Shown piece after piece: positions 30,284 to 54,495 of a stretch of 64,000 nt of DNA (positions within the stretch are counted from its first letter, which is position 1; the number at the start of each line of letters is the position of its first letter). Both the position numbers and the translations under genes were made by a program. Where the stretch lies: NCBI GenBank assembly GCA_017506865.1, contig JAFCMP010000423.1, positions 310,001 through 374,000 of the forward strand, written 5' to 3'. The notes beneath the pieces were generated by a model. It searched no databases. It was not told the DNA's origin and saw only the letters and a list, made by a program, of their open reading frames with translations. The stretch is from Tribonema minus (taxonomy: Eukaryota > Sar > Xanthophyceae > Tribonematales > Tribonemataceae).

Positions 30284-30535
30284 CCGATGTGGCTGGCAGT
30301 CCTTGTGGCACACCGTGGAGACGGTCTTGGAGTACCAGACCCAACCCAACCCGACGGTACAAAAAGGAAATTCTTGTTGCTCAAGTCAGGCGGTTGTGAA
30401 AAAGTCAAGAAAAAGATTTTGGCCGAGAACACCCCAGCTGTGGACCTCCTAGTCGAGCTAGCTGGCGCCATCACCGCCAGCGCGGCACTCTTGAAGTGGC
30501 TGCAAAGCGTTGATGGTCAGCACAGCCCTTGGTGA
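30284..30535 (+). other. In-frame open extension after the gene A stop
   Basis: After the TGA at 30281-30283 the same frame remains open for 83 codons (GTKRKFLLLKSGGCEKVKKK, then AVDLLVELAGAITASAALLK) and ends at TGA 30533-30535. Its composition looks coding. It may be read-through sequence, a recent premature stop, or 3' UTR that is open by chance. Confidence 0.4.
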
Positions 30536-30753
30536 CTAGCATTTGACAGCATAGGAAGACTGCAGGTTCAGTCACGCCAGGCGGTGTCGAGCCAGAGTTT
30601 CGGCCATGCACGTACCAGCTGTGGTCGCTCGCCTAGCCGATGTCAGCAGCGGTACTGCTAGCGCGGCACTCTTGAATTGGCTGCGTAGCGTTGATGTGTC
30701 TGTATAGCCCTTGGTGACTAGCATTTGACAGCATAGGAAGACTGCAGGTTCAG
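30480..30753 (+). repeat. Direct repeat pair, ~95 bp
   Basis: 30480-30575 and 30658-30753 share GCGCGGCACTCTTGAA and CCCTTGGTGACTAGCATTTG and continue to CTGCAGGTTCA. The first copy overlaps the end of the open extension of gene A. Confidence 0.8.
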
Positions 30754-34917: not shown

Positions 34918-35270
34918 AAGTACTCTACCTTCTTGGGCTGATGCATATCTGCAATACTATGCTGCAGCACGCAGCTGAGAAAGTTTCCCCTAGTGTACAC
35001 AATGCAGGCATCGTCTCCATGAGAGATGATCGGGCACACTGCCCAAACCTTGAAGTTGCCACCCAGCACTGGGCTCTCCACTAGCCGCTGATTCTGCCCC
35101 GACCCCGGACTCTGAATGAACCCATGGGCCCAGTGCTCTATGACAGAAATGCACAGGCAATACCCCCAAGCTATCATGTGATGATGCTCAGGCACCCCTG
35201 ACCCCCCCTCTCCCCCCCAGTCAGGGACTGCGGTCCACAGGCCACCCCTGCTGCTCCCACCCCCACCCAC
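34918..35270 (-). CDS. Possible - strand exon converging on gene B
   Basis: A 119-codon open frame whose second half looks coding (LVESPVLGGNFKVWAVCPII, SHGDDACIVYTRGNFLSC) and ends near a candidate donor AAG|GTAGAG at ~34930. It lies 3' of the original lipase stop (35356-35358) on the same strand, so it may be a separate gene or lipase 3' UTR. Weak. Confidence 0.25.
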
Positions 35271-35289
35271 ACAGTGTCTACCTACCTAT

Positions 35290-38200
35290 ATGGGGTGGCG
35301 CATGCTCATCTGCTCACACTGTTGTGCCAACAGAAGCACACAGCACAGATGGGCGCTAAGCCTTGGCGGAGGCACGCTCCAGTTCAAACTGTCAGCTGCG
35401 AGCCGCATGGCACCGGTAGTGGCCCACTTCAACGGTGGTAGCTGCACGAGGTCGATGCTGAACCCTGAGGCGAGCACATCACACTGTCAGCAAAATCTGG
35501 CGGCAGCATACGCCAAGGGCATCCGGCAGCAGGTTGATCACGACCCATCCGGTGACCGTGCCCCTTCAGGCAGCAGTACCTGCAACACTGGGGCACACCA
35601 TGCCAAGCGTGTGCAGGAGATGAGCACCATGTATGGTTGCACGGCAGAAGACTTCCTACGGGCGGTAAGGAAGCTGAGTGCATGCACAGGTGCCTGCGGT
35701 CTGGTCCATATGTCAGCCAGCGCGGGGCAGAGGCAATGCGCGCTGACCTCGCCATGCCACACGTGTCGACGGAATGGAAGCGCCCCCACGCGCGCACGCC
35801 CGGCAGTACCCCCGGGCCAGTCCGAGGGCGGGGGTGCGGGTAGCGACGGCGCGGCCGCGGCGGCGGGGGCTGCCGCAGCGACACCTCCAAAGCCACCGGC
35901 GGTGCCGGCTAGTGGCGCTGCCAACTCAAAGTCCAGCAAGAAACGCCCGGCGGCCACGGCAACCGGCGCGCAACGCCGGCGCCGAACGGCAGCTGCTGCG
36001 GCACCGCCTGGCAGCGCCGGCAGCCGCACTCAGTCTAACAGCCTAAGGCTGCAGGACAGCAGCCCCCCCCACGGGACGGCCGTGGGATGGGCGGACATGG
36101 ACTTGGACCCGCCGGACGATGCCGCGTCACCGCCCCCCCCGACCACCACCACCAGTGGCAGGCCCTCAAAGCCCCAGTCACGAGCATCCCTGGCTTGGGA
36201 CCTCTCGACGCCCTCGGTCGTCCACGCACTTGACCAGACCAATGAGGCGGATCTACTGCTGCTACGGTTCACCACGACTGCCAACCCCTTCCGCACTCAG
36301 CTGCAGTGCACCCAGTGGGCACGGCTAGTGGAGCACGCCACACGACTACTGGCGGACGCCACAGACAGTGCACGTGAGGCGGCACGGGTGCGCCTCCACC
36401 ATGGTGCCGGGGCGTTTGCTCATCAGGTTTCTCAGACTCTAGTGCAGCGCGGCTACAGGCTGCTGCACCTGCTAGCAGCAATGGCCTTTGGTAGGCAACC
36501 GGAGGGAACCGGTATGCCGCCTGCGGCCCGGCTGGCAGCGTTGCTGTCTGGCGACTTTGCGGAGCTACTGAGAAAGACGCTGTCAGCAGCAGCGGCGCTG
36601 CGGGCCCCCAAACCAAACAACGCAGCTACGGCGTCGGCACAAACGAACTTCGATGCCGACTGGACGGAGGCTGACTCCAGGCAGCAAACAGCATGCGCTG
36701 CCCTCTCAGGCAAGCGACGGGGGGTAGGCCTGGCTGCCGCACGACTAGAGGCGCGTGAAGCATGCGCCCCAGCAGACGAGGTCACGGCACAGGTGCTGGC
36801 AGCAAAGCACCCTGAAACTGGCACCCGGCCCGGGGTAGTCGATACGCCAATGGAGCAAGTGCGCGGCCTGGTACGCGACGCCCGGCGGCACTGCTTGCAC
36901 GGCGCAGGGGTGGCAACGACCGCCGGGCCCGCTGGCAGCGGCAGTCCCGTCTTCGAATCGGGTCAGGCGCATGATCGCAGCGATAGGCCTGAGGATGCTG
37001 CCAGCGCAGCCGGACGGCGCCTCGAGGTGGAGGCGACAGACATACTGTCGACCTTGTCCGCAGCAGGGGCGGGGAAGGCAGGAGGGCTGGACGGCCTACG
37101 CTATGAACACCTCTTGATGGCCGCTGGGCCTGGTGCACCAGTGAAAGCAGCCACCCGCCCCGTGGGCAGTGCCTCGCCAGGACTAGCTGGTGATTCAGAA
37201 TCGGATGTGATGGAACCGGCATTCGCCCATCACCTGGCCAAGGTGTTCACGACGCTGCTTGTTGAGCCCGAACTGCTGCCGGAGCAATCGCAACGGCTTC
37301 TCCGCGCCGCGGCCCTCTCAGGCATAGGACAGAAGCGGCGTCCGATCGCCTGCTCCAGTGTCTGGCGCAGACTCCTCGGGTCCACAGCGGCACGGGGTGT
37401 CAAGGGCAAAATATCGGGGCTGCTGGCCTCCATGTCGCAGTTTGGCGTAGGATACCGGTCTGGCGTCGAGCATGTGGCAGCGCGCGCGCGCGTGTGGCAC
37501 GAGCTGTATGGCACCACAATCCAGCTGGACTGTGAGAACGCATTTAACAGTGTGGATCGCGCCGCCATTGTGCGGGGACTTATGCTCTTCTGTCCGGAGC
37601 TGCTCCCGCACTTTGAGTCCGTATACTGTGGTGACACTGCCCCAGAGATGCGAGTGAAGGTGAACGGTGAAGCTCGCATTATCTGCTCCCACCTAGGGTG
37701 CCAGCAAGGGGACCCTCTAGGGCCGCTGTACTTTGCAGTGGCAGCGGCATTCCTACTCTTCTACCCTGATGGAGTGAATGCGACGCCCGGCAGTATGCCG
37801 GCCTACGGCCACAGCACAGCGGAACCGCCAGCCCCGCACTGCGCTTTCCTGGATGACCTCAACGTGCTGCAAGCTGCCTACTTCGACGATGCAGCGGCCG
37901 CTGGGGTGGCAGAGGTGATCCGTCGGCTTGCGGCAGGGGGCCTACGCGTTCGACCAGACAAGTCGCTGGCCATTGCCATGCGCGGCACAGTGTTTGATGA
38001 AGCGGCCAGAGCACGCCTGCGCGCCCTTGACATACCGTTTGTGGACGCCACCATGCCAGAATCCAGTCAGGGCTTTACGTCGGTCGGGGTACCGGTAGGG
38101 CACCCAGCCTATGTGCATGCTGCCATGAGCAAGCATCTTGTTGACGCAGGGACATGGCGATTGTCGTGGCAGCTAGCTGGGATGGCGCGGCATCACCTAC

Positions 38201-40158
38201 AGGCAGCACAGTTCATTCTGCGCAGGTCACTGACGAAGCGGATGGGCTTCTTAGCTCGGGTCGTTGACACGGCTTTGAGTGAGACATGGCTGCACGCATT
38301 TGACGGGTTCTGTGCATGGACGCTTGAACGCATGCTGCACCTGCACGGCTGCGCTACCGCGGCAGTCATGAAGTCACACCTGCTGGCCGCCTGCACTGCT
38401 GGTGACAATGAGGTAGCCAGCAGTGGCAGCGTGCTGGTATTGCCGCGCTTGGGCCCGCCAGAACTCACGGACATCGCAGTGCCACTGCGGGCGTCACGGT
38501 TGCCGGAGCGACGAGGCGGTCTGGGCATGCCGCTTTTGGGGCTACTGGCACCAGCCGCATACACGGCCCAGGCATGCACAACACTGCGGCCTGCAATAAT
38601 TCATGCCACTGTGGCAGCAGGGGCCCTGAGGCTCGGCACTGACGAACACGGCGCAGTCACCTGGTTCACGCAGCACTCATGCGCAATACGCGAGGACCAG
38701 GGACTGCCGCCAATCATCGAGGCCGTGCGACGCTCTACGCGAGCGCTGACAGCTGATGGCGGCGAAAAATCACGCACAGCTGTGGCCGAGCAGCTCCCAG
38801 CATCGTTGCTACGGTGGGCAGCGGATACAACGGCCGCAGCGTCGACGCTCCCCACTGCGGTGCAAGCGATCTACGCCGCAACTGCCGTCACGGAGACGGG
38901 GACCACTGAGCCAGCCCCACACACCCACGGCATTGTGCCTGGCGCCGAGGCGGCCGCTGCGGCGGCGACCGTACCTGGCCCTCAAGCCGCTGCCGCGGCT
39001 GCCTCTTCCACGCCCGCTAAAACACAAACTAGCGCGGAAGAAAGCAGCTGCAGCGGCGGGCAGGAGGACGACGACGACGACTGGGAGGCCTATGCTGACG
39101 AGATCTGCAGAAAGGTAGTGCCCCGCCGCCGGCGCGGTCACTTCACGCACGGACTACAAGCCCGCCTTTCAAATGTTCTTCGACGTCAATACGAGGACTG
39201 CCTGGTGGAGGACCTAGAGGCTGCCTCGGCTGGTGCCGTGGGCAAGCCGACGCAGGCTACACTTATTGGTGACTTGCGTGACACCAGCCGCCGCCGCCAA
39301 CAGGCTAGCGCGCGGGTCCTGGCGCAGCTGCGCAGCCAGCGTGCGTCCGGGGCAATGGCGTGGATGAGCGCGCCACCCGCTGCCAATGACCGCCCGGGTG
39401 CGGCGCCCATGTCCAGTATGGCAGCAGCCACGATGATTATGGTTGCGATCTTTATAGACGGGTGGGGCATACAGGGCGAGGTGTGCCCATGGCGGTGCAG
39501 TGACGTGAGCCCCACCTCCACGCATGCGATCAGCTGCCCCAGCCAGCACATACGGGGGCACAACGCGACACACACTGCCCAAAAGCGGTGCCTACAGCGC
39601 ATCTTGAGACAGCACCATGTCTCTATTGTCCGCAATGAGGACGCTAGCGTCTTCAAGGTACCGGGGTATCGGGCGGACACAGTCATTGACCCAGGGTGTC
39701 TGCACTTTAGCAGTGCATACCGTAACAAGGGAATAGTGCTAGACACAAGTGTGCGCGCGCCCACAGCGAGCTCGTACCTGACAGGCAAAACAAATGCCTC
39801 GAACACGGACGGCTATGCTGCTGGGGTGGGGGAGGACGCGAAGGTCAAGCACCACACCGGCACCTTGACGTCATCTTGGGCTTTTGTGCCATTCGTGCAG
39901 GAGTCGTACGGACGGCTGGGCAAGCAGACAAGCCTTTTTGTTAAGGAGTTGGCAATGCACTCAGCACTGTGCTCAGGGGGGGGGAAGGCAGATGTGTTAC
40001 GCAAGGCCGGGTTAGCTAAGCGTCAGATCCTCATTGAGCTGAGCATATCGCTGGCGCGGGAGTTGGCGGAGCGCGTCATGGCATACACACGTGGAGCGCG
40101 AATGCTGGGCTGTGTTGCGGCGCCGGTATCCAAACTCCTAGGGCACAGCGCAGACTAG
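35290..40158 (+). CDS. LINE B ORF: RT plus restriction-like endonuclease, uninterrupted
   Basis: 1,622 codons are open. Residues 1-~31 come from flanking host DNA; LINE sequence begins near 35385. Cys/His cluster remnants (~residues 60-180) and an Ala/Pro/Lys-rich linker lead into reverse transcriptase. RT motif A QLDCENAFNSVDR is near residue 746, motif B GCQQGDPLGPLYFAV near 802, and motif C FLDDLN near 852. The LPERRGGLGMP thumb motif follows near 1,075. The knuckle CPWRCSD...CPSQHIRGHNATH is near 1,398. The endonuclease core PGYRADTVID near 1,457 is followed by IVLDTSVRAPT near 1,482. The OTU protease is lost with the truncated 5' end. This is the best intact RT-RLE copy in the window; activity is not implied. 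Confidence 0.85.
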   Translation: MGWRMLICSHCCANRSTQHRWALSLGGGTLQFKLSAASRMAPVVAHFNGGSCTRSMLNPEASTSHCQQNLAAAYAKGIRQQVDHDPSGDRAPSGSSTCNTGAHHAKRVQEMSTMYGCTAEDFLRAVRKLSACTGACGLVHMSASAGQRQCALTSPCHTCRRNGSAPTRARPAVPPGQSEGGGAGSDGAAAAAGAAAATPPKPPAVPASGAANSKSSKKRPAATATGAQRRRRTAAAAAPPGSAGSRTQSNSLRLQDSSPPHGTAVGWADMDLDPPDDAASPPPPTTTTSGRPSKPQSRASLAWDLSTPSVVHALDQTNEADLLLLRFTTTANPFRTQLQCTQWARLVEHATRLLADATDSAREAARVRLHHGAGAFAHQVSQTLVQRGYRLLHLLAAMAFGRQPEGTGMPPAARLAALLSGDFAELLRKTLSAAAALRAPKPNNAATASAQTNFDADWTEADSRQQTACAALSGKRRGVGLAAARLEAREACAPADEVTAQVLAAKHPETGTRPGVVDTPMEQVRGLVRDARRHCLHGAGVATTAGPAGSGSPVFESGQAHDRSDRPEDAASAAGRRLEVEATDILSTLSAAGAGKAGGLDGLRYEHLLMAAGPGAPVKAATRPVGSASPGLAGDSESDVMEPAFAHHLAKVFTTLLVEPELLPEQSQRLLRAAALSGIGQKRRPIACSSVWRRLLGSTAARGVKGKISGLLASMSQFGVGYRSGVEHVAARARVWHELYGTTIQLDCENAFNSVDRAAIVRGLMLFCPELLPHFESVYCGDTAPEMRVKVNGEARIICSHLGCQQGDPLGPLYFAVAAAFLLFYPDGVNATPGSMPAYGHSTAEPPAPHCAFLDDLNVLQAAYFDDAAAAGVAEVIRRLAAGGLRVRPDKSLAIAMRGTVFDEAARARLRALDIPFVDATMPESSQGFTSVGVPVGHPAYVHAAMSKHLVDAGTWRLSWQLAGMARHHLQAAQFILRRSLTKRMGFLARVVDTALSETWLHAFDGFCAWTLERMLHLHGCATAAVMKSHLLAACTAGDNEVASSGSVLVLPRLGPPELTDIAVPLRASRLPERRGGLGMPLLGLLAPAAYTAQACTTLRPAIIHATVAAGALRLGTDEHGAVTWFTQHSCAIREDQGLPPIIEAVRRSTRALTADGGEKSRTAVAEQLPASLLRWAADTTAAASTLPTAVQAIYAATAVTETGTTEPAPHTHGIVPGAEAAAAAATVPGPQAAAAAASSTPAKTQTSAEESSCSGGQEDDDDDWEAYADEICRKVVPRRRRGHFTHGLQARLSNVLRRQYEDCLVEDLEAASAGAVGKPTQATLIGDLRDTSRRRQQASARVLAQLRSQRASGAMAWMSAPPAANDRPGAAPMSSMAAATMIMVAIFIDGWGIQGEVCPWRCSDVSPTSTHAISCPSQHIRGHNATHTAQKRCLQRILRQHHVSIVRNEDASVFKVPGYRADTVIDPGCLHFSSAYRNKGIVLDTSVRAPTASSYLTGKTNASNTDGYAAGVGEDAKVKHHTGTLTSSWAFVPFVQESYGRLGKQTSLFVKELAMHSALCSGGGKADVLRKAGLAKRQILIELSISLARELAERVMAYTRGARMLGCVAAPVSKLLGHSAD
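35356..35384 (-). pseudogene. Severed original C-terminus of the lipase gene
   Basis: Reading - from the LINE junction gives LERASAKA followed by TAG (35358-35356), in frame with codons ending at ...NRYE on the far side of LINE B. These eight codons are now 4.85 kb away and replaced by LINE-derived codons. Confidence 0.65.
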
Positions 40159-40236
40159 GCTGCTGCGTTGACGCAAGCTTTTCGATTGCATAGGCAACCC
40201 GGCCTCCCTTGGGCCTTTATAAATACAAGTCCATAC
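35385..40236 (+). mobile_element. LINE copy B, 5'-truncated, inserted in the last lipase exon
   Basis: Identity with LINE A starts at CAAACTGTCAGCTGCG (11311 / 35385) and runs to the shared 3' end CAAGTCCATAC at 40236. No poly(A). GTTC at 35382-35385 and 40237-40240 is the probable short target duplication. Removing the insert restores an uninterrupted lipase C-terminus (NRYELERASAKA, stop), so the host target was coding. Only scattered differences from copy A are seen, so it is recent. Confidence 0.88.
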
Positions 40237-40333
40237 GTTCATAGCGGTTCACATAGCGCGGCCAGTGGTGGGGCCCCGGCTCCTGCACAGACATCCAGTT
40301 GGGCACCACCGTGTGCTTGGCCCGGTACGCAGG
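40217..40333 (-). CDS. Lipase exon 6 (terminal, with LINE-derived stop)
   Basis: Acceptor TCTTGTCTGCGCAG, then PAYRAKHTVVPNWMSVQEPG and HHWPRYVNRYE. At 40237 the frame enters antisense LINE B 3' sequence, adding RMDLYL and TAA. Confidence 0.7.
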   Translation of the reverse strand, partial: PAYRAKHTVVPNWMSVQEPGPHHWPRYVNRYERMDLYL

Positions 40334-43300
40334 CTGCGCAGACAAGAATGGAAGGGGGGAGGGGAGGGGGCTTGAGAATCCAGCATGCATGCAGGGGGGG
40401 CGATTGACCTTGGGCGCCACCTTGTGCTTGGCCCGGTACGCTTGCTGCACAAACAAGTTGAGCAACCGTTGTGACACCCACACATAAGGGGAACATACAA
40501 TATGTAGTGCAGGTGCACATCTGAAGGTGGTGATTGACAGCTGACACGAGAAAGCCAGCGAACATGGGGGCGCTGACCTGCAGGCTCCAGCGCAGAGGCC
40601 TCGCTTGATATTAGCGTGTGATGTTCATGCAGCACTGCTGATGGAGCCGCAAAGGGCGTCACACATGCCTAACACACAATCAGCTTCTGCTGCTCATCAG
40701 ACGCAGTTGCGCTGTGGTAGGACATGTGTGACTGTACACATACTTCAACTGTGATGTGCGTATGCACGATCTATCTTGCGCTGAGGGCGCCATTCTTCAA
40801 CTTGTGCTGCTCATCTGCAAGTCAAAGACTGTCATTAACCATATGCTTCACAATCGATTTGCTGTCGGGTATTCGGCAACATATAACCTAACCCTATCTG
40901 TAGACAGGCTGCTACAGGTTAGGGATTAGGATTAGGATTAGGGCAAGGGTTACGGTTGGGCTTGACCCTACCTCGCTGCATCCCAACTTACTGAAATGGT
41001 GTCTTGCAGTTCGTCTACTGGGAGCAGTGCTTGTGCTCAATTGCCGCACCAGTGCACAACTCGCTGGATTAGGCACAGGTACTCTTCAAGTTGCCGCAGC
41101 AGAACGTACAGTGTGCTCCTCGCCGAAGCGGATAATGAGATATGAACTGCTGGTAAGAAGCCAAACGGCACCAATGTCAATAAAGCGCAGTACTGGACAG
41201 CTGCGCTGTCATCACACCATAGCACAAACTTATGGTTAGCGCTAGGGTTGGGATTGGCTGGCGCGTGCTCATGTATTCCATACATGGTGTGCACTAAACC
41301 GGCACGTCCTACCGAAAGCACGTCGACAAATTCGTTCATGTCCTCGTGATGGCATGGCTCAACCAACTAGCTTTCATTGACGTTGAGCACAGATGTTCAT
41401 TTGAGAGGGTAGGCTAACCTTACATGTACCCTCACCGAAAGCAGATCAGCCGACTTGTTTATGACAATGTGCTAATATAGAACCACCACCTCGTGCTGAA
41501 CAGCGTTTCTTGGATGACTTTGAGCACCGAAGTTCAATTGTCAGATGTAAAGGCCAACCATGTATACCCTTACCGAAAGGAGGTAGTCCAACTTGTTCAC
41601 GACCACGTGATAATATACCTGAACAGCTTCAACTTGCATGAGTTGGAGCACATAATTCAATTGTGAGAAGTAAAGGCTAAAAGTATGTATTCCCTCACCA
41701 AAAGCAGGTCATCCGACTTGTTCATGACCTCATGATACTATAGCATCATCGCCTCTATGACTTGTTGCTGAACAACAGTGACTTGTTCATGACCTTGCAG
41801 GACAGGAAGTATAGGTGAACAGCTTCAATTTCATGCTGAGCATTGATGTTCACTTTGTAGGGTAGAGTACCCCTATATATACCCTCACCGAATGCAGGTC
41901 GTCGGACTTGTTCATGACCTTATGATCATATACCTGAACAGCATCACTCTTCAAAGTTTAACCACTAATGTCACATGAGTAGTAACGTGCATTTGGAAGG
42001 GGTAGATTACCCCTATATATACCCTCACCGATAGCAGGTCGTCCGACTTGTTCATGACCTCCAGCGGGCGCGTGTCATCCACGAGGTGCAGGTGAAGCTC
42101 CAGGTTGTGCAGCTGCCCAATGTCAAACGGGTTCCAGCCATCGAGCTTCTCAATTAGTTTCTTGTCCTCCAGCCCCTGAGAGCTGAGCATCAGCTGCTGT
42201 CCTCCGTGACTGTAGCCGCGCACGAAGGTGGAGGGGACCAGGTCGCCGTCGTTGGTGACGCGCACGTGGCCGGGCATCTGCGATGACGTTCAAGTTGGCA
42301 TTGCTCAGCTCAGCAGAAGTATATACTTGGAGGTATTGATTGTGTAGGTACATGTGCATCGGAATTGTAGCCGCGCATGAAGGTGGAGGGGACCAGATCG
42401 CCATCGTTGGTGACGCTCACGTGGCCGGGCATCTGCAGTCACAGTGGCAACGCTCAGCTCAGCAAGAGTATTTACTTGGAGGTCTTGATTGTGACAAGTG
42501 CATCTGAATGGGCAGTCAAGTGTTGTTAATAATGTGTTGCCGTGGTGGCAGTGCTCATCTCAGCAGGGGATTGGCTTTTTGTGAAGGTGTGCATGTGCAT
42601 ATATAGATGGCAACGCATGAGCGATAGCAGCATTAGCAGGTTTGTGATGGCGCACATGTGTATGTAGAGGGTACGCCAAGCACCAATGCTGTAGGCGTTC
42701 CCAGTTGTAGCAATGCAGCATGAGCAGGTAACTGCTGGCAAGCTGAGCACTGCCACCATCAGCGCAGCGTTTGGCACAGCAGTTTTCCTGTCATGTAGTA
42801 TTGATGAGCGAGCCCTGGACTCTGTTGCGACCCAAGTAGAGTGAGGCTGAACTACGGGTTGGAGACAACATTCAGCAGCACGTGCCGTAAAAGCTACAAG
42901 GTAACCGACAACATCACCCCTCAAAGTTGTACTCATTGTGTTAAATATGCAGCGCATAAAAGGGCATGTGCAATCCCTGTAGGCAGCGCGCGCAGCAAAG
43001 CACATGCAGCGCCGGCGTCCGATCTAAGCTCCATCTCTTATGACAACCAGACTGCGCGTAGGTACCATCAGTCAAGCTGCAGGGTTGTGTGATTCAGCAC
43101 CGCTCAGCACATGCCAAAAGTGGACTGGTATTGACAGTAAGCCTGCCCATAACATGCTCATGAGGTCAGCCTTGCCCCTGCCCCTAACCCTCCTTTAACC
43201 CGCACAAACGAGCACGAGGGCTGAGCGGAGCAGCGCTCAGCAATTGCCACAAGAGGGTTGGGGACCTAACCCTTGCACCTACCCGTACATGTTCACAAGG

Positions 43301-46300
43301 TTGACACTGCCCCTGACCCCATCTTTCATTACCATCAGGCAAAACGTGCTGGCAGCAAAGCACGTCAGGGCTTACAGCTGCGTAAACGTCAGTACTTACC
43401 TGTGAAGCATACAGTATTGAGAGCCATGCACCGCGTGCGCATCACCGCACCAAACAACACACGCACCTGGGCTTCCATTCCGCGCAGACAACGGGATTTC
43501 CCATGGATGCGGCGCGCACATCACCGTGTCTGAACACTCCAATTTGAAGTATATGCAATGCTGAGTCGTGCCCCCCCCTCTGCGCAAAAACTGTTATGCA
43601 ACAGCGCTCGTACTCGTGCACGCACCGTGTCTGTCACTCCAACTTGGAAATGTTGTACAGTACTGAGCTGTGTCCCTCCCCTTATGCATCTATATGCAGC
43701 GCAACGGAACGCACTTTGGCACCCATGTCCGCACAGAAGACGTCATTGCCGACGGGCAGCGACGCCCACGTCACTGCATCTTTAAACTCCAACGTGAAGT
43801 CTGTACTTCTACAATACTGAGCTGTGCCCCCTCCCATACATATGCAACAAATCACGCATTTTGGCGTCCATGTCCGGGCGGAAGACGTCGTTGCCGACTG
43901 GCGGCGACGCCCACATCACCACGTCTTATTAGTACTCAAATTGGTAGTATATGCTCTACTGAGCTGTGTGCCCACCTGTACACCTAACGCACCTTGGCAT
44001 CCATGTCTGCGCAGCCGTCGGTGCGGGCGGGTGGCGACGCCCACGTATGTCACCGCGTCTGAACACTTCAATTTGAAGTACATGCTTGTGCTGAGCTGTG
44101 CCCCCTCCCTGTATGCAACGCACAACGCACCTTGGCGTCTATGTCTGCGCAGAAGACGTCGTTGCCGACAGGCGGCGACGCCCACGTCACCGCAACTTCA
44201 AAACTACAACTTGAAGTCTGTACAATACTGAGCTGTGCCCTCCCTGCCTGTATATGAGCAACGCACAACGCACCTTGGCATCCATGTCAGCGCAGAAGAC
44301 GTCATTGCCAACGGGCGGCGACGCCCACGTCACCGCGAACGCGGGCGCCTTCTTGCCATCTGTCCACTCCATCTGCACGACGTCGTACGCATTCAGCGTC
44401 GCGAGCGCGGCGCCGAGGCTGTGCCCCGTGGCGATGATGCGGCCGACTTCAACTTGAGGTTCGTCGCGCAGCGCGCCCAGCGTGGCGAGGATGTGATTGC
44501 GCGGCGTCTCGCCGTCGTCGTCGCGCTCCGTATGGCCGTGCTGGTCGCAGCGGCGGTTGTACATGTAGTTGAAGCCGCGGTGCACGAGCATGGGGGGGCC
44601 GGTGGTGTCGTCTGCCTCGATGTCCGCGATGGCGCTCTGGATGCGAGGGGCGGCTTCTGCGTCGGTTTGGTCGAGCTCCCTCAGGGGCTTGATCTCGGAC
44701 TCCTGTGTGAGGGTACAGGGAGAAGGTAGAGGGAGGGCAGGGGTTAAGTAGTGGCAAGGTCGTGATGGTGGCCTTTGTCAATGATAAACGTCAACAGAAT
44801 GGCATCAACACATCATCGCAACCTTACTCCTAATGCTTGAGTGCGTCGTGGTCGCAGACCCACTTGTTGCACTACACCCAGCGGGTTTAAACTGTTTGTG
44901 GGTCAAAAGCTGCAGTATGTCATGTGATCACCAGCACTCAAGAGATGGTTCAGCCGTTTCATGACATCCCTACCACTGCCTGAAAAGTGCACTCCCAAAA
45001 GGTGGGCCTTGCGTTCAGCTGGAGTTCATTACATGACAACACACGCTGTAAGACTGCGCCGTTATTTACAACAATGTGCATGAAGGGTGCGCGTTTGTGT
45101 AAGGAGGAGATGCACACCGCAGCCATGATGTGCAATGTTATGTCCAAACTGCATGACGTCGTATGCTACACCTGCAAGGCTATCATGCACGCGAGCACAT
45201 GCACTTGTGATTCGAAGCATGCACCACAGAGTACACCGCGCGCTGCCCATTGCAAACTTTAAGTTGATCAGAAGACTAAGGGGCAAGTGACGCACCTCCG
45301 GTGAGAACCACGGCGCCTGAATGAAGCGCCCATCGGCGACCCACTCCTGGTTGGTCTGCGTCCCGCGCCACGAAATCACAACGTCGCGGCCGCTGCGGCC
45401 ATCGCGCGCCGCCGCCTCCGCCGTCTCCACCGCTATGAACCCCGCCCACGCAGTCTCGTGGTGGCTGTCCATGGCCTTGGTGTAGATGGAGGAGACGACT
45501 TCAAAGTCGCCGCTGAAGTCGTACTCGCACTTCACGTGGTCGGGCCCGCCGGGGCTGACCTCGTAGTGGAAGCAGAGGCCGTAGTTGGTAAGCTCTTGGA
45601 GGGTGCGGCTGTCGCCGTCGAAGTCGAAGCGCGTGGGGACATTGCCGTTGGCGTCGCGCTTGTAGCCGTACACGTCGTAGGTGATCTGGGGCACGGCGCG
45701 TGCGTCACGGCTCAGTAAATCAGCAAATGATGGTTTTATTTGCATACTTCGAAGTACTTTGCGAAGTCGAAGCGCGTGGGGACGTTGCCGCTGGCGTCGC
45801 GCCTGTAGCAGTACACGTCGTACGTGATCTGGGGGGGGCGTGCGCGTGAGCAGGCCATCACGGCTCAGCAAATAAGCAAAAAAATGGCTTGAGTACACGT
45901 CGTAGGTGATCTGCGGCACGTGCCCGTGTGCAACGGCAGACGATTACGGCTCAGTAAATCAGCAAACGAAAGGTTTGTTTGCACACTTTGCGATGCTTTC
46001 AAGTGTGTGCGTCTGCGTGCAGCACCGCAGCTGTGGACCATAGTGAAGAGCATGGTTCAACGTCGGATGTATGCGTACTACCTTGCGCACCGTAGCTATG
46101 GTACAATCTGCTCTCAACTCATGGAGAACACACGGAGCGAGCTCAAATGCCTTGCAGGATGTAGTTGACCAACATGGTTGCGGGACCAAAAACACTCACT
46201 GTACAGAACGCGAAGCACGCAATCTTCAACTTCAACATTTTTCGCATGAGGTTTTGAGGTTAATATCGACTACAGTATCTTCTCGCATCAGAGCTGGGTA

Positions 46301-48020
46301 ATGCTCATGAGATGTCTACTAGAGCATGTGGAAGATGACAAACGCACGCTCCAGCATTGCACATGTGTTGCGGATACATCTTAGTGCCAAAACTGACCTT
46401 GAGCACAATTGACGTACTTCAACCGGGCAAACACGCAAGATTTCCGTACATAGACAAATCATGCTCAAGGCGCTGCACGAACTATTGTTGCATTGCGTCG
46501 TCGCTGCAATGTATACCATGTATACCTGTGCAAACTGGCCCCACTTCGCAAGATCTTTCCTGCCACGCAGCCATTGCGGGAGTGAGTGGACGGTAATCTC
46601 GGGCTCGACGGTGGCTGTGGACGCCGGGAGCTTGGTCAGGTCGGGCGCAGTGCTTGCAGAGGACTGATGAAGGCACCTGACGGCACGATGCCGATGGCTA
46701 ACAGCAGCAGTAGCATGTCCTGCATGGCAGATTGAATAATGATGCGACTGCTCCGGCCATCGCAAAGAGGCGGCCCTTGCAGAGCGGTCACCTTCAATGC
46801 TTCTTCTGCGGCGCGGCGAAATCTGGAGCCAGGATACTCTTTTTGTGTGTGACTCGCCGTCGGTTCAACTCCACAAAATATGAAGTTGCAGTTGCAGTTG
46901 CCATCGAATTTTTTTTTAATGAAGTTGCCACTTTGCTGACGTAAGTGCAGAGAACAGCTGCTGATGGGCGGCAGATGCGGCGGCAAAAGACCAACAGCAA
47001 TGCTAATCCCTGCCACCATTGCGGCAGCATCGGTGGCAGTGGTGACAGGCAGCCACAAAGCTCTCTTGGTGGCGTACGTATGGACTTGTATTTAAAAAGG
47101 CCCAAGGGAGGCCGGGTTGCCTATGCAATCGAAAAGCTTGCGTCAACGCAGCAGCCTAGTCTGCGCTGTGCCCTAGGAGTTTGGATACCGGCGCCGCAAC
47201 ACAGGCCAGCATTCGCGCTCCACGTGTGTATGCCATGACGCGCTCCGCCAACTCCCGCGCCAGCGATATGCTCAGCTCAATGTGGATCTGACGCTTAGCT
47301 AACCCGGCCTTGCGTAACACATCTGCCTTCCCCCCCCCTGAGCACAGTGCTGAGTGCATTGCCAACTCCTTACAAAAAGGCTTGTCTGCTTGCCCAGCCG
47401 TCCGTACGACTCCTGCGCGAACGGCACAAAAGCCCAAGATGACGTCAAGGTGCCGGTGTGGTGCTTGACCTTCGCGTCCTCCCCCACCCCAGCACCATAG
47501 CCGTCCGTGTTCGAGCATTTGTTTTGCCTGTCAGGTACGAGCTCGCTGTGGGCGCGCGCACACTTGTGTCTAGCACTATTCCCTTGTTACGGTATGCACT
47601 GCTAAAGTGCAGACACCCTGGGTCAATGACTGTGTCCGCCCGATACCCCGGTACCTTGAAGACGCTAGCGTCCTCATTGCGGACAATAGAGACATGGTGC
47701 TGTCTCAAGATGCGCTGTAGGCACCGCTTTTGGGCAGTGTGTGTCGCGTTGTGCCCCCGTATGTGCTGGCTGGGGCAGCTGATCGCATGCGTGGAGGTGG
47801 GGCTCACGTCACTGCACCGCCATGGGCACACCTCGCCCTGTATGCCCCACCCGTCTATAAAGATCGCAACCAAAATCATCGTGGCTGCTGCCATACTGGA
47901 CATGGGCGCCGCACCCGGGCGGTCATTGGCAGCGGGTGGCACGCTCATCCACGTACTCACCGGGTCAGCACTGCTCAGCAGTCCGACAGTCAGCGCAAGG
48001 TGGCCTGACATCGCAGACAT
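40217..48020 (-). CDS. Class 3 lipase / phospholipase A1-like gene
   Basis: The predicted ~460-residue alpha/beta hydrolase has six principal exons, all joining in phase 0: 48020-47961, 46663-46526, 45685-45296, 44702-44274, 42277-42029 and 40333-40217. The first 20 residues (MSAMSGHLALTVGLLSSADP) are hydrophobic, perhaps a secretory or organelle signal. HSLPQWLRGRKDLAKWGQFA and ITYDVYGYKRDANG give the N-terminal fold. VVISWRGTQTNQEWVAD is the conserved RGT strand. The nucleophile elbow is GHSLGAALA (Ser). The catalytic Asp lies in RVTNDGDLVPS and the His in HNLELHLHLVD, the usual Lipase_3 triad. The C-terminal MNKSDDLLS-PAYRAKHTVVPNW matches the family's tail. Such enzymes cleave acyl esters of glycerolipids, often at sn-1 of chloroplast lipids in plants; the substrate here is unknown. 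LINE D lies in intron 1, and LINE B in the last exon now supplies the stop, giving tail ...NRYERMDLYL. Confidence 0.8.
40409..40444 (-). CDS. Duplicate 12-codon lipase cassette upstream of exon 6
   Basis: Acceptor TTGTTTGTGCAG, then QAYRAKHKVAPK, donor AAG|GTCAAT. 36 nt, phase 0 to 0. It is a partial copy of the start of exon 6 (PAYRAKHTVVPN) and could be included, skipped, or be a decoy. It lies 76 bp upstream of exon 6 on the - strand. Confidence 0.5.
40882..40955 (+). repeat. Interstitial telomere-like tract in a lipase intron
   Basis: CCTAACCCTA then GGTTAGGGATTAGGATTAGG; degenerate TTAGGG-type repeats between lipase exons 5 and 6. The rest of 40490-41300 holds no exon I can support. Confidence 0.5.
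41306..42060 (-). repeat. Array of copies of the lipase exon 5 donor edge
   Basis: The end of exon 5 (ATGAACAAGTCGGACGACCT, donor TCG|GTGAGGGT) recurs downstream at about 41880-41930, 41690-41740, 41566-41612, 41414-41460 and, degenerately, 41306-41342. Most copies keep a GTGAGGG- or GTAAGGG-type donor. Spacing is ~110-190 bp. Confidence 0.8.
42029..42277 (-). CDS. Lipase exon 5 (Asp and His of the triad)
   Basis: 249 nt, acceptor CGTCATCGCAG, donor TCG|GTGAGG, phase 0 to 0. It starts MPGHVRVTNDGDLVPSTF, then YSHGGQQLMLSSQ, and ends HNLELHLHLVDDTRPLEVMN plus KSDDLLS. It carries the predicted catalytic Asp and His. Confidence 0.8.
42367..42435 (-). repeat. Partial copy of the lipase exon 5 acceptor edge
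   Basis: Repeats the acceptor and first ~20 codons of exon 5 (CTGCAG|ATGCCCGGCCACG, MPGHVSVTNDGDLVPSTFMR) about 90 bp upstream of the exon, then diverges. Confidence 0.8.
43439..44336 (-). repeat. Array of copies of the lipase exon 4 donor edge
   Basis: The last ~65 nt of exon 4 (VTWASPPVGNDVFCADMDAK, donor AAG|GTGCGTTG) recurs downstream at about 44129-44193, 43990-44057, 43856-43921, 43712-43777 and 43464-43530, with a degenerate copy near 43590. The period is ~130-145 bp. The spacer holds CAATTTGAAGTA-like sequence and AGCTGTGCCCCCTCCC-like sequence. Confidence 0.85.
44274..44702 (-). CDS. Lipase exon 4 (nucleophile Ser)
   Basis: 429 nt, acceptor CTGTACCCTCACACAG, donor AAG|GTGCGTTG, phase 0 to 0. 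It holds MLVHRGFNYMYNR, then VGRIIATGHSLGAALATLNA with the catalytic Ser, and ends FAVTWASPPVGNDVFCADMD plus AK. Confidence 0.82.
45296..45685 (-). CDS. Lipase exon 3 (RGT strand)
   Basis: 390 nt, acceptor CCGTGCCCCAG, donor GAG|GTGCGTC, phase 0 to 0. It starts ITYDVYGYKRDANGNVPTRF and includes ELTNYGLCFHYEV, AWAGFIAVETAEAAARDGRS and GRDVVISWRGTQTNQEW. The acceptor was chosen because the two upstream copies share CAG|ATCAC(C/G)TACGACGTGTAC. Confidence 0.78.
45758..45925 (-). repeat. Two copies of the lipase exon 3 acceptor edge
   Basis: 45758-45850 repeats the upstream GCTGAGCCGTGA-like intron end, the acceptor CCCCCAG and ~25 codons of exon 3. 45890-45925 repeats the acceptor CCGCAG and ITYDVYS. 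Each is preceded by a GATTTACTGAGC-like sequence. Confidence 0.78.
46526..46663 (-). CDS. Lipase exon 2
   Basis: 138 nt, acceptor CTTCATCAG, donor CAG|GTATACATG, phase 0 to 0. SSASTAPDLTKLPASTATVE, then HSLPQWLRGRKDLAKWGQFA. It is preceded by a hydrophobic open stretch (MLLLLLAIGIVPSGAF) that reads in another frame, so an alternative 5' exon with a better signal peptide is possible if the frame is offset. Confidence 0.6.
47077..47952 (-). mobile_element. LINE copy D, 5'-truncated, in lipase intron 1
   Basis: 876 bp matching the 3' end of LINEs A-C, covering part of the endonuclease region and the 3' tail. It has the same 3' end (CAAGTCCATAC in LINE sense), flanked by GTAC at 47073-47076 and 47953-47956. 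It lies in the same orientation as the lipase and begins directly after the 5' splice site GTGAGTAC. Small length differences from copy B break its frame. Confidence 0.85.
47961..48020 (-). CDS. Lipase exon 1
   Basis: 60 nt from ATG, donor CCG|GTGAGTAC, coding MSAMSGHLALTVGLLSSADP. Phase 0 joins exon 2. The assignment rests on phase, strand and hydrophobic N-terminus and is less certain than exons 3-5. Confidence 0.5.
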
Positions 48021-48535
48021 TGTGAGCGCCACAACAAAACTTCAATTACAGCCAGCGAGACTGCATGAGATCAATCAACAATCAGTACAGGGAGCTGTGT
48101 ATCCCATGGTATGGCCATGTAGTCACCCAAGCCATTCAACAACATCGAATGCCACCCATATACGCCATATGCCTATATACAGTGCGCCCAATGGTACAAT
48201 TTGTTTTTTCTTGGCGCGGAATTTACATGATAAAATTTTAGGGTTACCGGGTCAGCACTGCTCAGCAGTCCGACAGTCAGCGCAAGGTGGCCTGACATCG
48301 CAGACATTGTGAGCGCCACAACAAAACTTCAAGTACAGCCAGCGAGACTGCATGAGATCAATCAACAATCAGTACAGGGAGCTGTGTATCCCATGGTATG
48401 GCCATGTAGTCACCCAAGCCATTCAACAACATCGAATGCCACCCATATACGCCATATGCCTATATACAGTGCGCCCAATGGTACAGTTTGTTTTTTCTTG
48501 GCGCGGAATTTACATGATAAAATCATATCAACGAT
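47961..48535 (-). repeat. 287-bp tandem duplication including lipase exon 1
   Basis: 47961-48247 and 48248-48532 are almost identical, sharing TCAGCACTGCTCAGCAGTCC, GTGAGCGCCACAACAAAACT and CCATATGCCTATATACAGTG. Each holds the exon 1 sequence. The donor after the downstream copy is GTGAGTAC; after the upstream copy it is GTAACCC. Confidence 0.88.
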
Positions 48536-50171: not shown

Positions 50172-51732
50172 TCACCAGCCGCTCCCGCTATGCGCGTCAA
50201 AGTTGAAGTCGTGCTCATCGGGCACAACTCCAAACCCCTCCCTGCTGCCCGCTGCTGCCGCCACGACTGCCGCTGTCGCCGCCTTGACTGCTGCGTCCGT
50301 CGGCAACTCCGCCGCGCCCTGCTGCTGCTGCTGCTGCTGCTGCCGGTGCTGCTGCTGCTGCTGCTGGTGGTGCTGCTGCTGCTGCGGCGGGTGGTGGTGG
50401 AGGTGATGCTGCTGCGGCGGCGGCGGCGATGCGGCAAAGAGGTTGCTGATCGCTGCTGCGTGCTCCGCGCCCCACGGCCCCTCTCCGCTGCCGCAAAAGT
50501 CAGACTCGCCACTGATGCCCGCGTAATGATGGCCAAACTCTGCAGCTGCGAATTCGCCGCCGCTGCCGCTGCCGCCACCGCTGCCGCCGCCTATGTGGGG
50601 TATGCTGCCATGGCTAGGCGCTTGTGGCAGTGCTGGCACGCCCCCCTCCCGTCCCTGCGGCTGCTGCCGCTGCTGCTCCTCTGCCGCCGCCGCCGCCATC
50701 GCCGCGGCAGCAGAACCAGTGGGGGTAGTGGATCGTGATCTCAAAAAGCCGCCGCCGCCGCTGCCGCCGCCGCCGACAGCAAAAGGCCGCCGCGGAACGG
50801 CGGCGGCAGCGGCGGCGGCGCTGTCGCTACCCCACAGTACGCTGCCGCTGCCTGCGCTGCTGCTGTCAAAACTGGTCCTGCTGCCGAATGCGCCGCCGCC
50901 GCCGCTTTTGGTGAGGGTAAACGGGTTGCTGAACGCGGCGGCGGTGCTGCCGTGGCTGGGGGCCTGCGGCAGCACCGGCACGCCGCCCTCGCTGCCAGCG
51001 TGCTGCACTGCTGCTGCTGCTGCGGCGGCGGCAGCGGCAGTGGGCGTGGCCGACCGCGATCTGCTGTTGGCAGCAGCAGAGGCGGCGCGTTCGCCGCCAA
51101 AGAGCGTGCCGCCACCGCCGCTGCCGCTACCGCCATAGCCAGGGTCGGCGGTGCTCTCGCTGAGGAGGTCAAAGTGGCCGTAATCACTGGTGAAGGCGCT
51201 GCCGAGGGCGTCACTGTGGGGGGGTGCTGCGGGCAGCACGGGCACCCCCCCTTCCGCCCCCCCATGATGCCCCTGCGCGTCAACGCTCGGCGGCGCAGCA
51301 GCGGCAGCGGCGGGCGTCGGCGGCCGCTTCATGAGAGTCTTGCCACCGCCGCCGCTGGCTCGCCTGGCAGCAGACTCCGCAGGCGCGGCGCCGCCGGCGG
51401 CAGCGGCGGCGGCGGCGGCGGCGCTGTTCTTGGCGCGCTGCAGCGTGTTGAAGCGGTTCTTGACGTCGTTGTACGAGTGGCCGGGGAGGCAGCGCGCGGC
51501 GTCGGCGAAGCGGTGCCCCGTCTGCTGCATCATGCTCTCGAGCAGCGCATCCTCTTCTGGGGTCCATGGACCGGAGCGCAGGAGCGCGGGGTTGACGACA
51601 TTGTTGAAGCGCTCGCGGCACTGCTTGGGCTCGCGCCCGGGCATGTAGCGCGCGACGCTGGACCAGGCCTGGTTGAAGTGTGCGACGAGCACCGCCAGGC
51701 GCTTGTCTTCGGGCTCGCACCATGTGCCGACG
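50172..51732 (-). CDS. MYB gene exon 2 (repeats 2-3 and C-terminal low-complexity tail)
   Basis: 1,561 nt with one leading base to complete the split Gly codon; 519 residues. After the DNA-binding repeats, a motif of the form GVPxLPxAPxHxS occurs four times (GGVPVLPAAPPHSD, GGVPVLPQAPSHGS, GGVPALPQAPSHGS and a shorter form), perhaps a repeated interaction motif. poly-Gln and poly-His follow. Confidence 0.8.
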
Positions 51733-54495
51733 CTGCCGTGTTGGGGGGGAGGGTTGCGGGGGTGCAGGGGGGGCGTGTGTGTGTCAGCAACAGCGTCTGT
51801 GTGCGTGTGGATGCTGAATACGCCGTGATGTTTATGCTGTCAGTGCGGCTGCTGAAGTGATGGGTGCACAAGGGGATGCCTTGACCGCGAAGCGCCAGCG
51901 GCATATGTCGTGACCAGCGTGGACATCTGCACAAAGGATGATGCTCAGCACGTAAACCATGAGATGCAGCCCTTGAAATGTGCGCACCTACAGCCGAAAG
52001 GCATCTTCCTCCTTCTCAACAGAGTTCATTGTGTAGACACAGCGCGAGAGTGATGCCTCTGAGCTATGTTCTGCCACGTGCATGTACAACTTAGAGGAAG
52101 TGAGGGGTATTTCGCATATGAACGTTTACTTGCTCACCCACCACAAAGCAGAACCTTCATGCTGACCTTACATGATGAACTTCAAGAACTTGAACTTGCA
52201 CTGTGACCAGCGGCAGCACGTCTGTGCTGCTGCCGCAGGAACAGCTTAACAGCACACCCTTAAAATAGTCACTGGTGACTGCATGCACCTGAGGCGCAAA
52301 ACTTCAACTGCTACCCACCCTCACCGTGCACACCTTCACACACAAACTTCATCTGTGACGCTCTCTTACCCTGTGACCGTCGCGCCCTGATTCACCACGG
52401 CGCGCCACTGCAGCATGCACTGCGCCGCCGACAGCTCCGCCTCCCCCTCACCGCGCTCCGCCGCTAGCGCCGCCGCCACCGCCTCCCACGCCACGCGCCC
52501 GGCCGCGCCGCCGCCGCTCGTCCGCTGCTGCTGCGCCTCCACCAGCCCGCGCAGCCTGTCTGTCGCGGCAGCGCTCCACACGCGCACGTCGTGAAGCTCG
52601 AGCCCCGCGGCCGCGAGCGCCTCCGTGACGTCCGGCGGAACGGCGCTGGGACTGTTCCAGGTCTGCTCCTCGGCGCTCGCCGCGGCGGCGCGGCGCGCGT
52701 GCACGCGCTGGTGCTTGCGGATCTTCTCGAGCTGGTGGTGGTGGAAGCGCATGCCGGCCTTCGCGCCGGCGCCGTGGCGGTGGTCGCACTTCGCGTGGTA
52801 GTGGCGCCGCGTCGCGAGGCGCGTCGCCGGCGCGCGCAGCGTGCACTGCGCCGCCTCGCACCTGTCGCCGAGGTTCACGCGCACCCACAGCGCGGGGTCG
52901 ATGTCCGCGTCCTTGACGTCGGTTCCCGTCGGCGTCGGCTCGCGCGACGCATCGGAGGAAGCCGCCGCGTCGCGCCTGCGCACGCCGCGCCCCCGCGTGA
53001 CGCGCCCCCCCCCCATCCCCCGCCCCCCAGGCTCATCTGCCTCGTCCATCGCCGCGTCTTCGGCAGCGGCGGCGGCAGCGGCGGCGGCGGCAGCGGCGGC
53101 GGCGGTTTCGTCGACCGACTCCGCGCGCGCGCGCTTGGCGCTGGAGCGCGTGCGCCTTGTAGAGGCACTAGCCGCGCTCGCGCTGCTGCCGCCGCCGGCG
53201 GCCGCGCTGCCGCCGCCGCTGCCGCTGCCGTCCGCAGCGGCGGCAGCGGCGGCGGTCTCGGCGCTGTCGCTGAACGCGCTGCTGCCGCCGTGGTAGGCGG
53301 CGGCGGGCGGGGTCAGGGGGGAGGGGTGGGGAGTGGGGGTTCTGCTTCTCTCGGGGTAGGGGGTGATGTGCGTGAGCGCGCGCTTGCGGCCGCGCGTTGC
53401 GGGAGCGTCGCCGCCTTCGCCCTGCGCCGCGCGCGCCGCCAAGTTGAGCTGCTGGTGCGGGTGCAGCTGCACTGGCGGCGGCATGAGCGCCATCTGCGGC
53501 GGCGGCTGCTGCATGGTGAGCTGCCCTCCCAGGCGCTGGATCTGCTGGCCCAGCAGCTGTATCTTCTGCTGCAGGCCTTGCGCTGCTTCGTCGCTGCCAC
53601 CGGCGCCTGCGGCGCTGCCGCTGCCGCCGCTGCCACTGCCGTCACCTCCTGCGCCGCCGCTGCTGCCGCCGCCGCTGCTGTAGCCAGCTGCTGGCGGTCG
53701 ATCAGCTCCAGTCAGCATTCCCCCTTCGCCGAACTGCTGTCCATGACGACGGAAGCCGCTGGGGAATTGGCTGCTGCTAGCACTTGGCATGATCACAGGT
53801 GGAGGGTAAGGAGAGCGCCTCGCATAAGCGGATGGGCGCGCAGCGAATGCACTGCTGTTGGTGCTGCCGCGGTGATGTTGTGAGATTGGAGGGGGCCAGG
53901 AGCGCTCTTGCATCTGGCGCTGATGCTGTTGGCCATACGGCTGAAAGGCACGGAACTGCCTGCCTTGCTCTGCTGCTGCCGCTGCTGCTGGCGCCATTGA
54001 ATGCTGGTGCGATTCGCGTGCGGCTTCGTCTGCAGCAGCATCTGCTCTCCTCGGCGAGCTCTGCAGGCTCGCCATTCCCGCCATCGCAGCAGCGGCATCG
54101 TATCCGCGATGTTGCTGCTGCAACTGTTGCTGCTGGCGATCATAAAGGCCACCTCCTTTAGCGCCATCGTCCCGAAATGGACTCACTGACCCGAGCCCCC
54201 TGGACGCCAGCGTGGGGCTGCAACCGTGCATAGGTGCTGCATCTGCCGCTGCATCCCTTCCTGGCTCCGGAGAGTGAGACATGTAGCCTTCTGGCTCGTC
54301 TCTGGGTGGGCTGAAGTTCAGTTCCGTAAAAGAGTTGTCCCTCAGGGTGCGTGCGCCGCCACTGGTTGCTGCCGCTGCCGCCTGAGACTGCTCCGACGTG
54401 TCGATCTGGCCAGGCACCAGGTCCACCCTGCCCAGCACAGATCTGAAGGAGCGAGGCCGGAAGGGCGCCGTCTCGTCGCCATCGTCCATGGACAA
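50172..54495 (-). CDS. Three-repeat MYB DNA-binding protein
   Basis: Two exons, 54495-52370 and 51732-50172, join in phase 2 across a 637-bp intron (donor AGG|GTAAGAG, acceptor CAACACGGCAG). The predicted protein has ~1,228 residues. Residues 1-640 are low-complexity (Ala, Gln, Gly, Ser) with basic patches (RRTRSSAKRARAE; RFHHHQLEKIRKHQRVHARR). MYB repeat 1 spans ~639-704 (VWSAAATDRLRGLVEAQ, VAWEAVAAAL, AAQCMLQWRAVVNQ). Repeat 2 starts at W713 (WCEPEDKRLAVLVAHFNQAW, then PGREPKQCRERFNNVVNP). Repeat 3 starts at ~761 (PWTPEEDALLESMMQQTGHR, then LPGHSYNDVKNRFNTL). The exon junction lies between repeats 1 and 2. The tail is Ala/Gly/Gln/His-rich with several GGVPxLPxAPxHxS repeats. It is probably a nuclear transcription factor; which MYB class (3R, SNAPc-like or other) is unresolved. 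The start ATG at 54495 opens MSMDDGDETAPFRPRSFRSV. Confidence 0.8.
52370..54495 (-). CDS. MYB gene exon 1 (N-terminal region and repeat 1)
   Basis: 2,126 nt, 708 codons plus two bases. It has a strong donor at 52369. It is uninterrupted despite long Ala and Gly runs, which also open the other frames. Confidence 0.78.

Follow-up and report, generated by a model that had tools for sequence, protein, structure and literature searches.

The lengthening of introns is usually credited to transposons and slow indels, and Vaughn and Bennetzen reportedly described patch-mediated repair in rice in 2014. In the passages of the literature drawn on here, the potato RNA-dependent RNA polymerase gene carries a tandem genomic duplication across an intron–exon boundary (Ma et al. 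2016, PMC4974935), and intron gain of the Rogers type proceeds by duplication of an exonic AGGT segment (PMC3443670, PMC4974935). Small tandem duplications also arise at double-strand breaks from opposed nicks, as passages of Schimmel et al. 2021 (PMC8355091) describe.

Here we describe arrays of exon-edge copies lying within introns of the xanthophyte Tribonema minus, which on our best reading are a new and abundant variant of tandem genomic duplication. As in the potato gene, to the extent that the passages of PMC4974935 describe it, the duplicated segment crosses an existing intron–exon boundary and carries splicing signals; unlike the potato case, in which a single event made a new intron, Tribonema carries arrays, of as many as five additional copies, in roughly half of the sampled introns. 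The passages on Rogers-type gain likewise describe a local tandem duplication within a gene that gives spare splice sites, but there the exonic segment creates an intron, whereas the Tribonema segment straddles an existing border and merely lengthens the intron. We found no evidence of new introns in Tribonema in the one pair compared, a lipase gene and its paralogue, where the introns share four protein positions and the copies lie inside existing introns. The opposed-nick passages of PMC8355091 speak of short insertions (<100 bp), whereas the Tribonema spacings are mostly 80–250 nt, and the passages in question name no link to exon borders. Introner-like elements are recognized as related sequences in the introns of unrelated genes; among 50 introns we found weak, short matches only. 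The literature searched, with most subscription journals outside it, contained in the parts available no account of exon-edge arrays in introns, nor of this feature in Tribonema. Passages on Haematococcus likewise mention no edge copies.

Edge-copy arrays in a lipase gene

The window, by which we mean the whole 64,000-nucleotide stretch of DNA analysed, carries a class-3 lipase gene on its minus strand at about 40.2–46.7 kb. The hand-spliced protein belongs to the Lipase_3 family (PF01764; 77.8 bits, curated cut-off 22). Its top database match, an alpha/beta hydrolase of Tribonema minus (P0001), is the database protein of this same gene and agrees with the hand-spliced model except at the N-terminus, part of which matches LINE sequence, and in four inserted segments. 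Read by eye, the inserts are translated copies of the exon 3 acceptor, exon 4 donor, exon 5 acceptor and exon 6 acceptor edges, and the transcript-derived protein of a relative (P0002) has none of the four. Edge copies thus mislead annotation, the database model of the lipase taking four decayed copies as exons.

Both ends of the gene have peculiarities of their own. A signal-peptide-like N-terminus at about 46640–46720 stands in a frame that differs from the remaining exon 2; this upstream sequence in the other frame is probably the N-terminal signal sequence of exon 2, and the frame difference may reflect sequencing error, unrecognised splicing or decay. At the other end, the final lipase codons and the stop (40217–40241) sit in sequence common to the 3′ ends of the LINE copies, and to judge from that overlap the C-terminus of the lipase appears to have been supplied by a LINE insertion.

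A preliminary description of this DNA had reported tandem duplications centred on splice junctions at most exons of the gene. The repeats are real, self-alignment and junction-anchored probes being in agreement, and the copies do contain the splice site together with part of the exon, as had been proposed. They occur at five of the eight internal edges of exons 2–6, with 13 junction-spanning copies in total (Table 1) and 111–153 nt between the true junction and its nearest copy. The other three edges (exon 2 donor, exon 3 donor and exon 4 acceptor) have no junction-spanning copy at the probe threshold. The copy numbers first given hold at the three acceptor edges, of exon 3 (two further copies), exon 5 (one) and exon 6 (one); at the exon 4 donor edge we count five where five to six had been given, and at the exon 5 donor edge four junction-spanning copies where there were said to be five. 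The introns had also been described as built largely from decayed exon edges, which needs tempering: the four lipase introns consist of local repeats to 36%, 0%, 51% and 46%, and these repeats include intronic sequence. Within the window, local-repeat coverage is 37% in the lipase span vs 6% and 7% in two intergenic-looking stretches.

Table 1. Exons and edge-copy arrays of the lipase gene (window positions; a slash marks the splice junction)
Feature	Position	Strand	Splice sites, copied junctions or basis
Exon 2	46526..46720, upper end approximate	-	translation, donor position (CAG/GTATAC at 46525), paralogue match
Exon 3, 130 codons	45296..45685	-	acceptor CCCCAG/ATC; donor GAG/GTGCGT at 45295
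Exon 4, 143 codons, GHSLG lipase motif	44274..44702	-	acceptor CACACAG/GAG; donor AAG/GTGCGT at 44273
Exon 5, 83 codons	42029..42277	-	acceptor CGCAG/ATG; donor TCG/GTGAGG at 42028
Exon 6, including stop codon	40217..40333	-	
Exon 3 acceptor-edge array, true edge and 2 copies	45618..45999	-	copied junctions at 45838, 45924
Exon 4 donor-edge array, true edge and 5 copies, unit about 130–150 bp	43452..44337	-	copied junctions at 44130, 43989, 43859, 43714, 43464
Exon 5 acceptor-edge duplication, true edge and 1 copy, distance 149	42198..42514, outer limits approximate	-	copied junction at 42426
Exon 5 donor-edge array, true edge and 4 copies	41309..42061	-	copied junctions at 41888, 41698, 41573, 41435
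Exon 6 acceptor-edge duplication, true edge and 1 copy of 48 bp	40298..40457	-	copied junction at 40444

A further proposal, that a whole exon 1 is present twice, found no support. The pair in question (47959–48523; two copies of a 287-bp unit, with 99.3% identity and 9 bp between them) sits upstream of the lipase gene and next to a truncated LINE copy, starting where that copy ends. In the lipase paralogue, the N-terminal residues and the exon 2 residues lie in one contiguous exon, and the stretch of the window that matches this exon is at about 46.5–46.7 kb.

The window holds several other features. Non-LTR retrotransposon copies with 94–99% mutual identity lie at 5258–6412 (−), 14503–18871 (+), 35861–40241 (+) and 47074–about 47955 (−), and the lipase gene is bracketed by two LINE copies in opposite orientation. 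The LINE copy at 35185–40158 falls in a frame that runs for 1657 codons without a stop; its reverse transcriptase match scores 29.5 bits, just under the Pfam cut-off of 29.6. Inside the left LINE block is a Copia-type gag open frame with a zinc knuckle (12402–13268, minus strand; 63 bits). Two more tandem pairs occur, one in a non-lipase stretch at 24428–25070 (330-bp unit, about 97% identical) and the other at 30404–30753 (spacing about 182 bp), a little downstream of the point, 30283, where an open frame ends. A two-repeat Myb DNA-binding domain is found at 51280–51839, in a long minus-strand open frame with many single-residue runs. Rfam searches of the window at the gathering threshold gave no match.

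Edge copies in other genes

We extended the scan to a set of introns from a single T. minus assembly, covering two gene families and the paralogue. A genome search gave the lipase paralogue (P0003, contig C90), whose introns are at the same four protein positions, and 132 exon matches came from searching that genome for the Pfam kinesin domain. GT–AG junctions, assigned from splice-site score and reading frame and not from transcripts of this strain, defined 50 introns in 26 genes: four in the lipase, four in the paralogue and 42 in kinesins. The kinesin introns were drawn from 29 loci, five of which yielded none; 20 of the loci (L011–L030) were the top-ranked ones, and nine (L031–L039) were picked by hand for several exons, a choice that favours long introns or long genes. 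Left out were 16 exon pairs without an exon or a clear splice-site pair, including pairs in L025 and L029, which are repeat-rich, and two kinesin matches judged to be edge copies (L018, profile 73–95; L022, profile 268–311) were removed before junctions were assigned. Each junction probe comprised 60 nt of exon and 40 nt of intron, with a score threshold of 46.

The pattern is not peculiar to the lipase and recurs in the paralogue and the kinesins. Junction-spanning copies, 69 in total, were found in 24 of the 50 introns and 15 of the 26 genes, and 26 introns had none; with the window lipase excluded, the counts are 56 copies and 21 of 46 introns. By group, the introns with junction copies number 10 of 27 among the top-ranked kinesin loci, 10 of 15 among the hand-picked ones, three of four in the lipase and one of four in the paralogue, whose single array is at the exon 5 acceptor. 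Introns with copies show weak clustering by gene (p 0.05, or 0.15 once stratified by length). The copies divide into 35 at donor and 34 at acceptor edges, with donor copies in 14 introns, acceptor copies in 17 and both in seven, an evenness that speaks against any cause specific to donors or to acceptors. In the same paralogue, the database protein extends 13 residues (VTYLSALVPGTAV) into intron 2 (L009 4502–4544), and the opening letters of this intron resemble the start of the following exon.

Copies in the same intron were detected with 32 of 100 junction probes (15/50 donor, 17/50 acceptor) and with 35 of 107 intron-interior probes (10/43 at the centre, 25/64 at quarter points). Exon-interior probes, placed 60–230 nt inside, found copies in one case of 200 (1/100 and 0/100), a design that presumes long exons and, where exons are short, puts some probes beyond the coding sequence. 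These results imply that local duplications abound along the whole length of the introns and that exon sequence enters solely as the edge of a border-crossing unit. In 400 Markov shuffles of the introns, the threshold of 46 was never attained, the maximum being 38.5. Introns with edge copies are also the longer ones, in line with the intron growth first suggested (median 884 vs 593 nt, Mann–Whitney p 8e-4), and local repeats cover 25% of 36,260 intron bases vs 12% of 159,126 flanking bases of unknown kind, the window excluded from both.

The many introns involved and the similar unit size could suggest a mobile introner-like or satellite element that inserts at splice sites, a reading we find hardly credible. 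Each unit copies its own gene's junction, and arrays of different genes have no sequence in common beyond 11 weak alignments of 36–88 nt among the 50 introns and the paralogy of kinesins and lipases, which bears out the earlier statement that this is not one satellite. Cross-gene comparisons of probes with introns reached the threshold in 25 of 4752 cases, and exon paralogy accounts for 24 of these, which coincide with edge copies in the other gene, with one unexplained. That paralogous exons recognise decayed exon pieces in this way provides independent support for the exon origin of the intron pieces.

Geometry, placement and decay of the copies

Successive junction copies are spaced at a median of 130 nt, with 67 of 69 values within 80–250 nt, and intron self-alignments gave no offset in the 40–80 nt bin. 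In the 29 arrays measured, the exonic part of the unit has a median length of 53 nt, with quartiles of 36 and 73 and a maximum of 197. Among the nearest copies of these arrays, 24 of 29 are full head-to-tail units, with source and copy in the same gene and no element common between genes, as tandem genomic duplication requires; the remaining five are not full tandem units. Some short pieces, 93–98% identical, sit 230–490 nt away, and simple tandem duplication explains them poorly. Few young complete pairs are available in which microhomology or filler at the breakpoints, as break repair would predict, could be sought; in three pairs, aligned length minus offset is −9 (the 287-bp pair upstream of the lipase), −3 (a 101-bp pair in L028) and −7 (L018). 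The copying runs from exon to intron, and in the 19 arrays with at least two copies the junction-nearest copy is the most exon-like in 12, vs 7.1 expected (p 0.016). This order of similarity, together with the longer introns, fits growth from the edge without proving it.

Tandem duplication might strike introns uniformly, with no preference for junctions, the border-crossing copies being chance overlaps with exons that are tolerated. Such a process would agree with the equal success of intron-interior and junction probes, with the exon share of the unit, which is spread from 0.15 to 0.88 and is weakly non-uniform (median 0.37, KS p 0.02), and with per-base repeat coverage, which in the 27 introns of at least 400 nt is flat from the junction inward and has no junction peak. 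Because interior copies are as frequent as junction copies and coverage is flat, the junction excess rests on placement tests, in which the null is uniform placement and the size of the excess depends on that null. Arrays occur in 23 of the 50 introns, and 19 of these 23 have a junction-spanning array, against an expectation of 6.7 when arrays are allowed up to 70 nt into exons or 9.4 with the limit set at 120 nt (p ≤ 1e-5). Restricted to pairs of at least 80% identity, the count is 12 of 16 vs 5.5 expected (p 5e-4, intrusion up to 120 nt). When exons are hidden, which keeps their slow evolution from aiding detection, 16 of 28 intronic arrays lie within 10 nt of a junction vs 6.7 expected (p 3e-5), and 21 of 28 lie within 25 nt vs 7.8 expected, a result reached in 0 of 100,000 draws. 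Flat coverage is itself compatible with anchored arrays because arrays begin at the edge and run inward. Against these counts, uniform duplication is in our judgment unlikely, and we favour recurrent duplication with an excess at exon borders.

Once formed, the copies decay as neutral DNA. Across the 69 copies, mismatch to the source is 0.143 in the exon part and 0.239 in the intron part, both lower bounds on absolute divergence, as alignments were trimmed by score. After correction, the exon/intron divergence ratio is 0.55. Restricted to the 44 copies with at least 20 nt on both sides it is 0.51, and in 39 of these 44 the exon part matches its source more closely than the intron part does. 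A ratio of about 0.5 is expected because the exon part gathers one branch of change, that of the copy only, and the intron part gathers two. At codon positions 1, 2 and 3, the mismatches are 112/929, 110/928 and 175/924 (0.121, 0.119 and 0.189), and the excess at position 3 is as expected from free change in the copy combined with synonymous change in the exon. The same divergence bears on whether the arrays are an artefact of assembly or haplotypes. The evidence comes from one assembly, but the copies differ from their sources by a mean of 14% in the exon part and 24% in the intron part and are present in more than half of the genes examined, which makes an artefact most improbable.

Might the copies instead be functional, as alternative exon ends or backup splice sites under selection? 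That 56 of the 69 copied splice dinucleotides are intact, and that four copies serve as exons in the database protein of the lipase, could be taken to say so. Retention is, however, close to what identity alone predicts: 27 of 35 donor copies are intact where 25.7 are expected, and 29 of 34 acceptor copies where 24.5 are expected, which gives no indication of a purging of decoys and little of their retention by selection. In addition, codon positions 1 and 2 drift equally, exon/intron divergence stands at the neutral ratio, and the transcript-derived relative of the lipase lacks the segments. We consider selection for function very unlikely. Of the two roles suggested at the outset, the arrays do supply many decoy splice sites, and alternative use of the copies, which decay neutrally, is unsupported.

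Probable intron growth from exon borders

Overall, we think it likely that tandem duplication that recurs locally, and in excess at exon borders, lengthens introns in Tribonema. Local head-to-tail duplications of segments of about 90–250 bp would recur in introns, especially across exon–intron borders, perhaps starting from end joining of a break or nick; replication slippage, also suggested at the outset, is a candidate as well. When a duplication spans a border, the original splice site, being on the outside, would remain intact and the copy would fall within the intron, to be spliced out and so removed from the mature mRNA, tolerated and left to decay neutrally. Repeated rounds would then produce arrays of edge copies, with introns lengthening partly from their edges.

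A bolder form of this explanation, which we hold tentatively and with some doubt, is that in this lineage tandem duplications of about 130 bp have their mutational hot spots at junctions, arising via a break coupled to chromatin, transcription or splicing, and that junctions are not simply places where duplications survive better. Introns would then grow in conveyor-like fashion from their edges genome-wide, with the newest copy beside the exon, older copies pushed inward and the spliceosome choosing among decoys.

Several uses of these arrays can be envisioned. As a practical warning, the lipase model in the database includes decayed edge copies as exons. Second, with one true donor beside up to five near-copies, the arrays offer a natural experiment on splice-site choice. 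Third, since each intron copy can be compared with a conserved exon source, intron growth becomes readable copy by copy, as a dated, directional and neutral record. Finally, if the junction excess holds genome-wide, it would point to a process of mutation that is linked to the architecture of genes.
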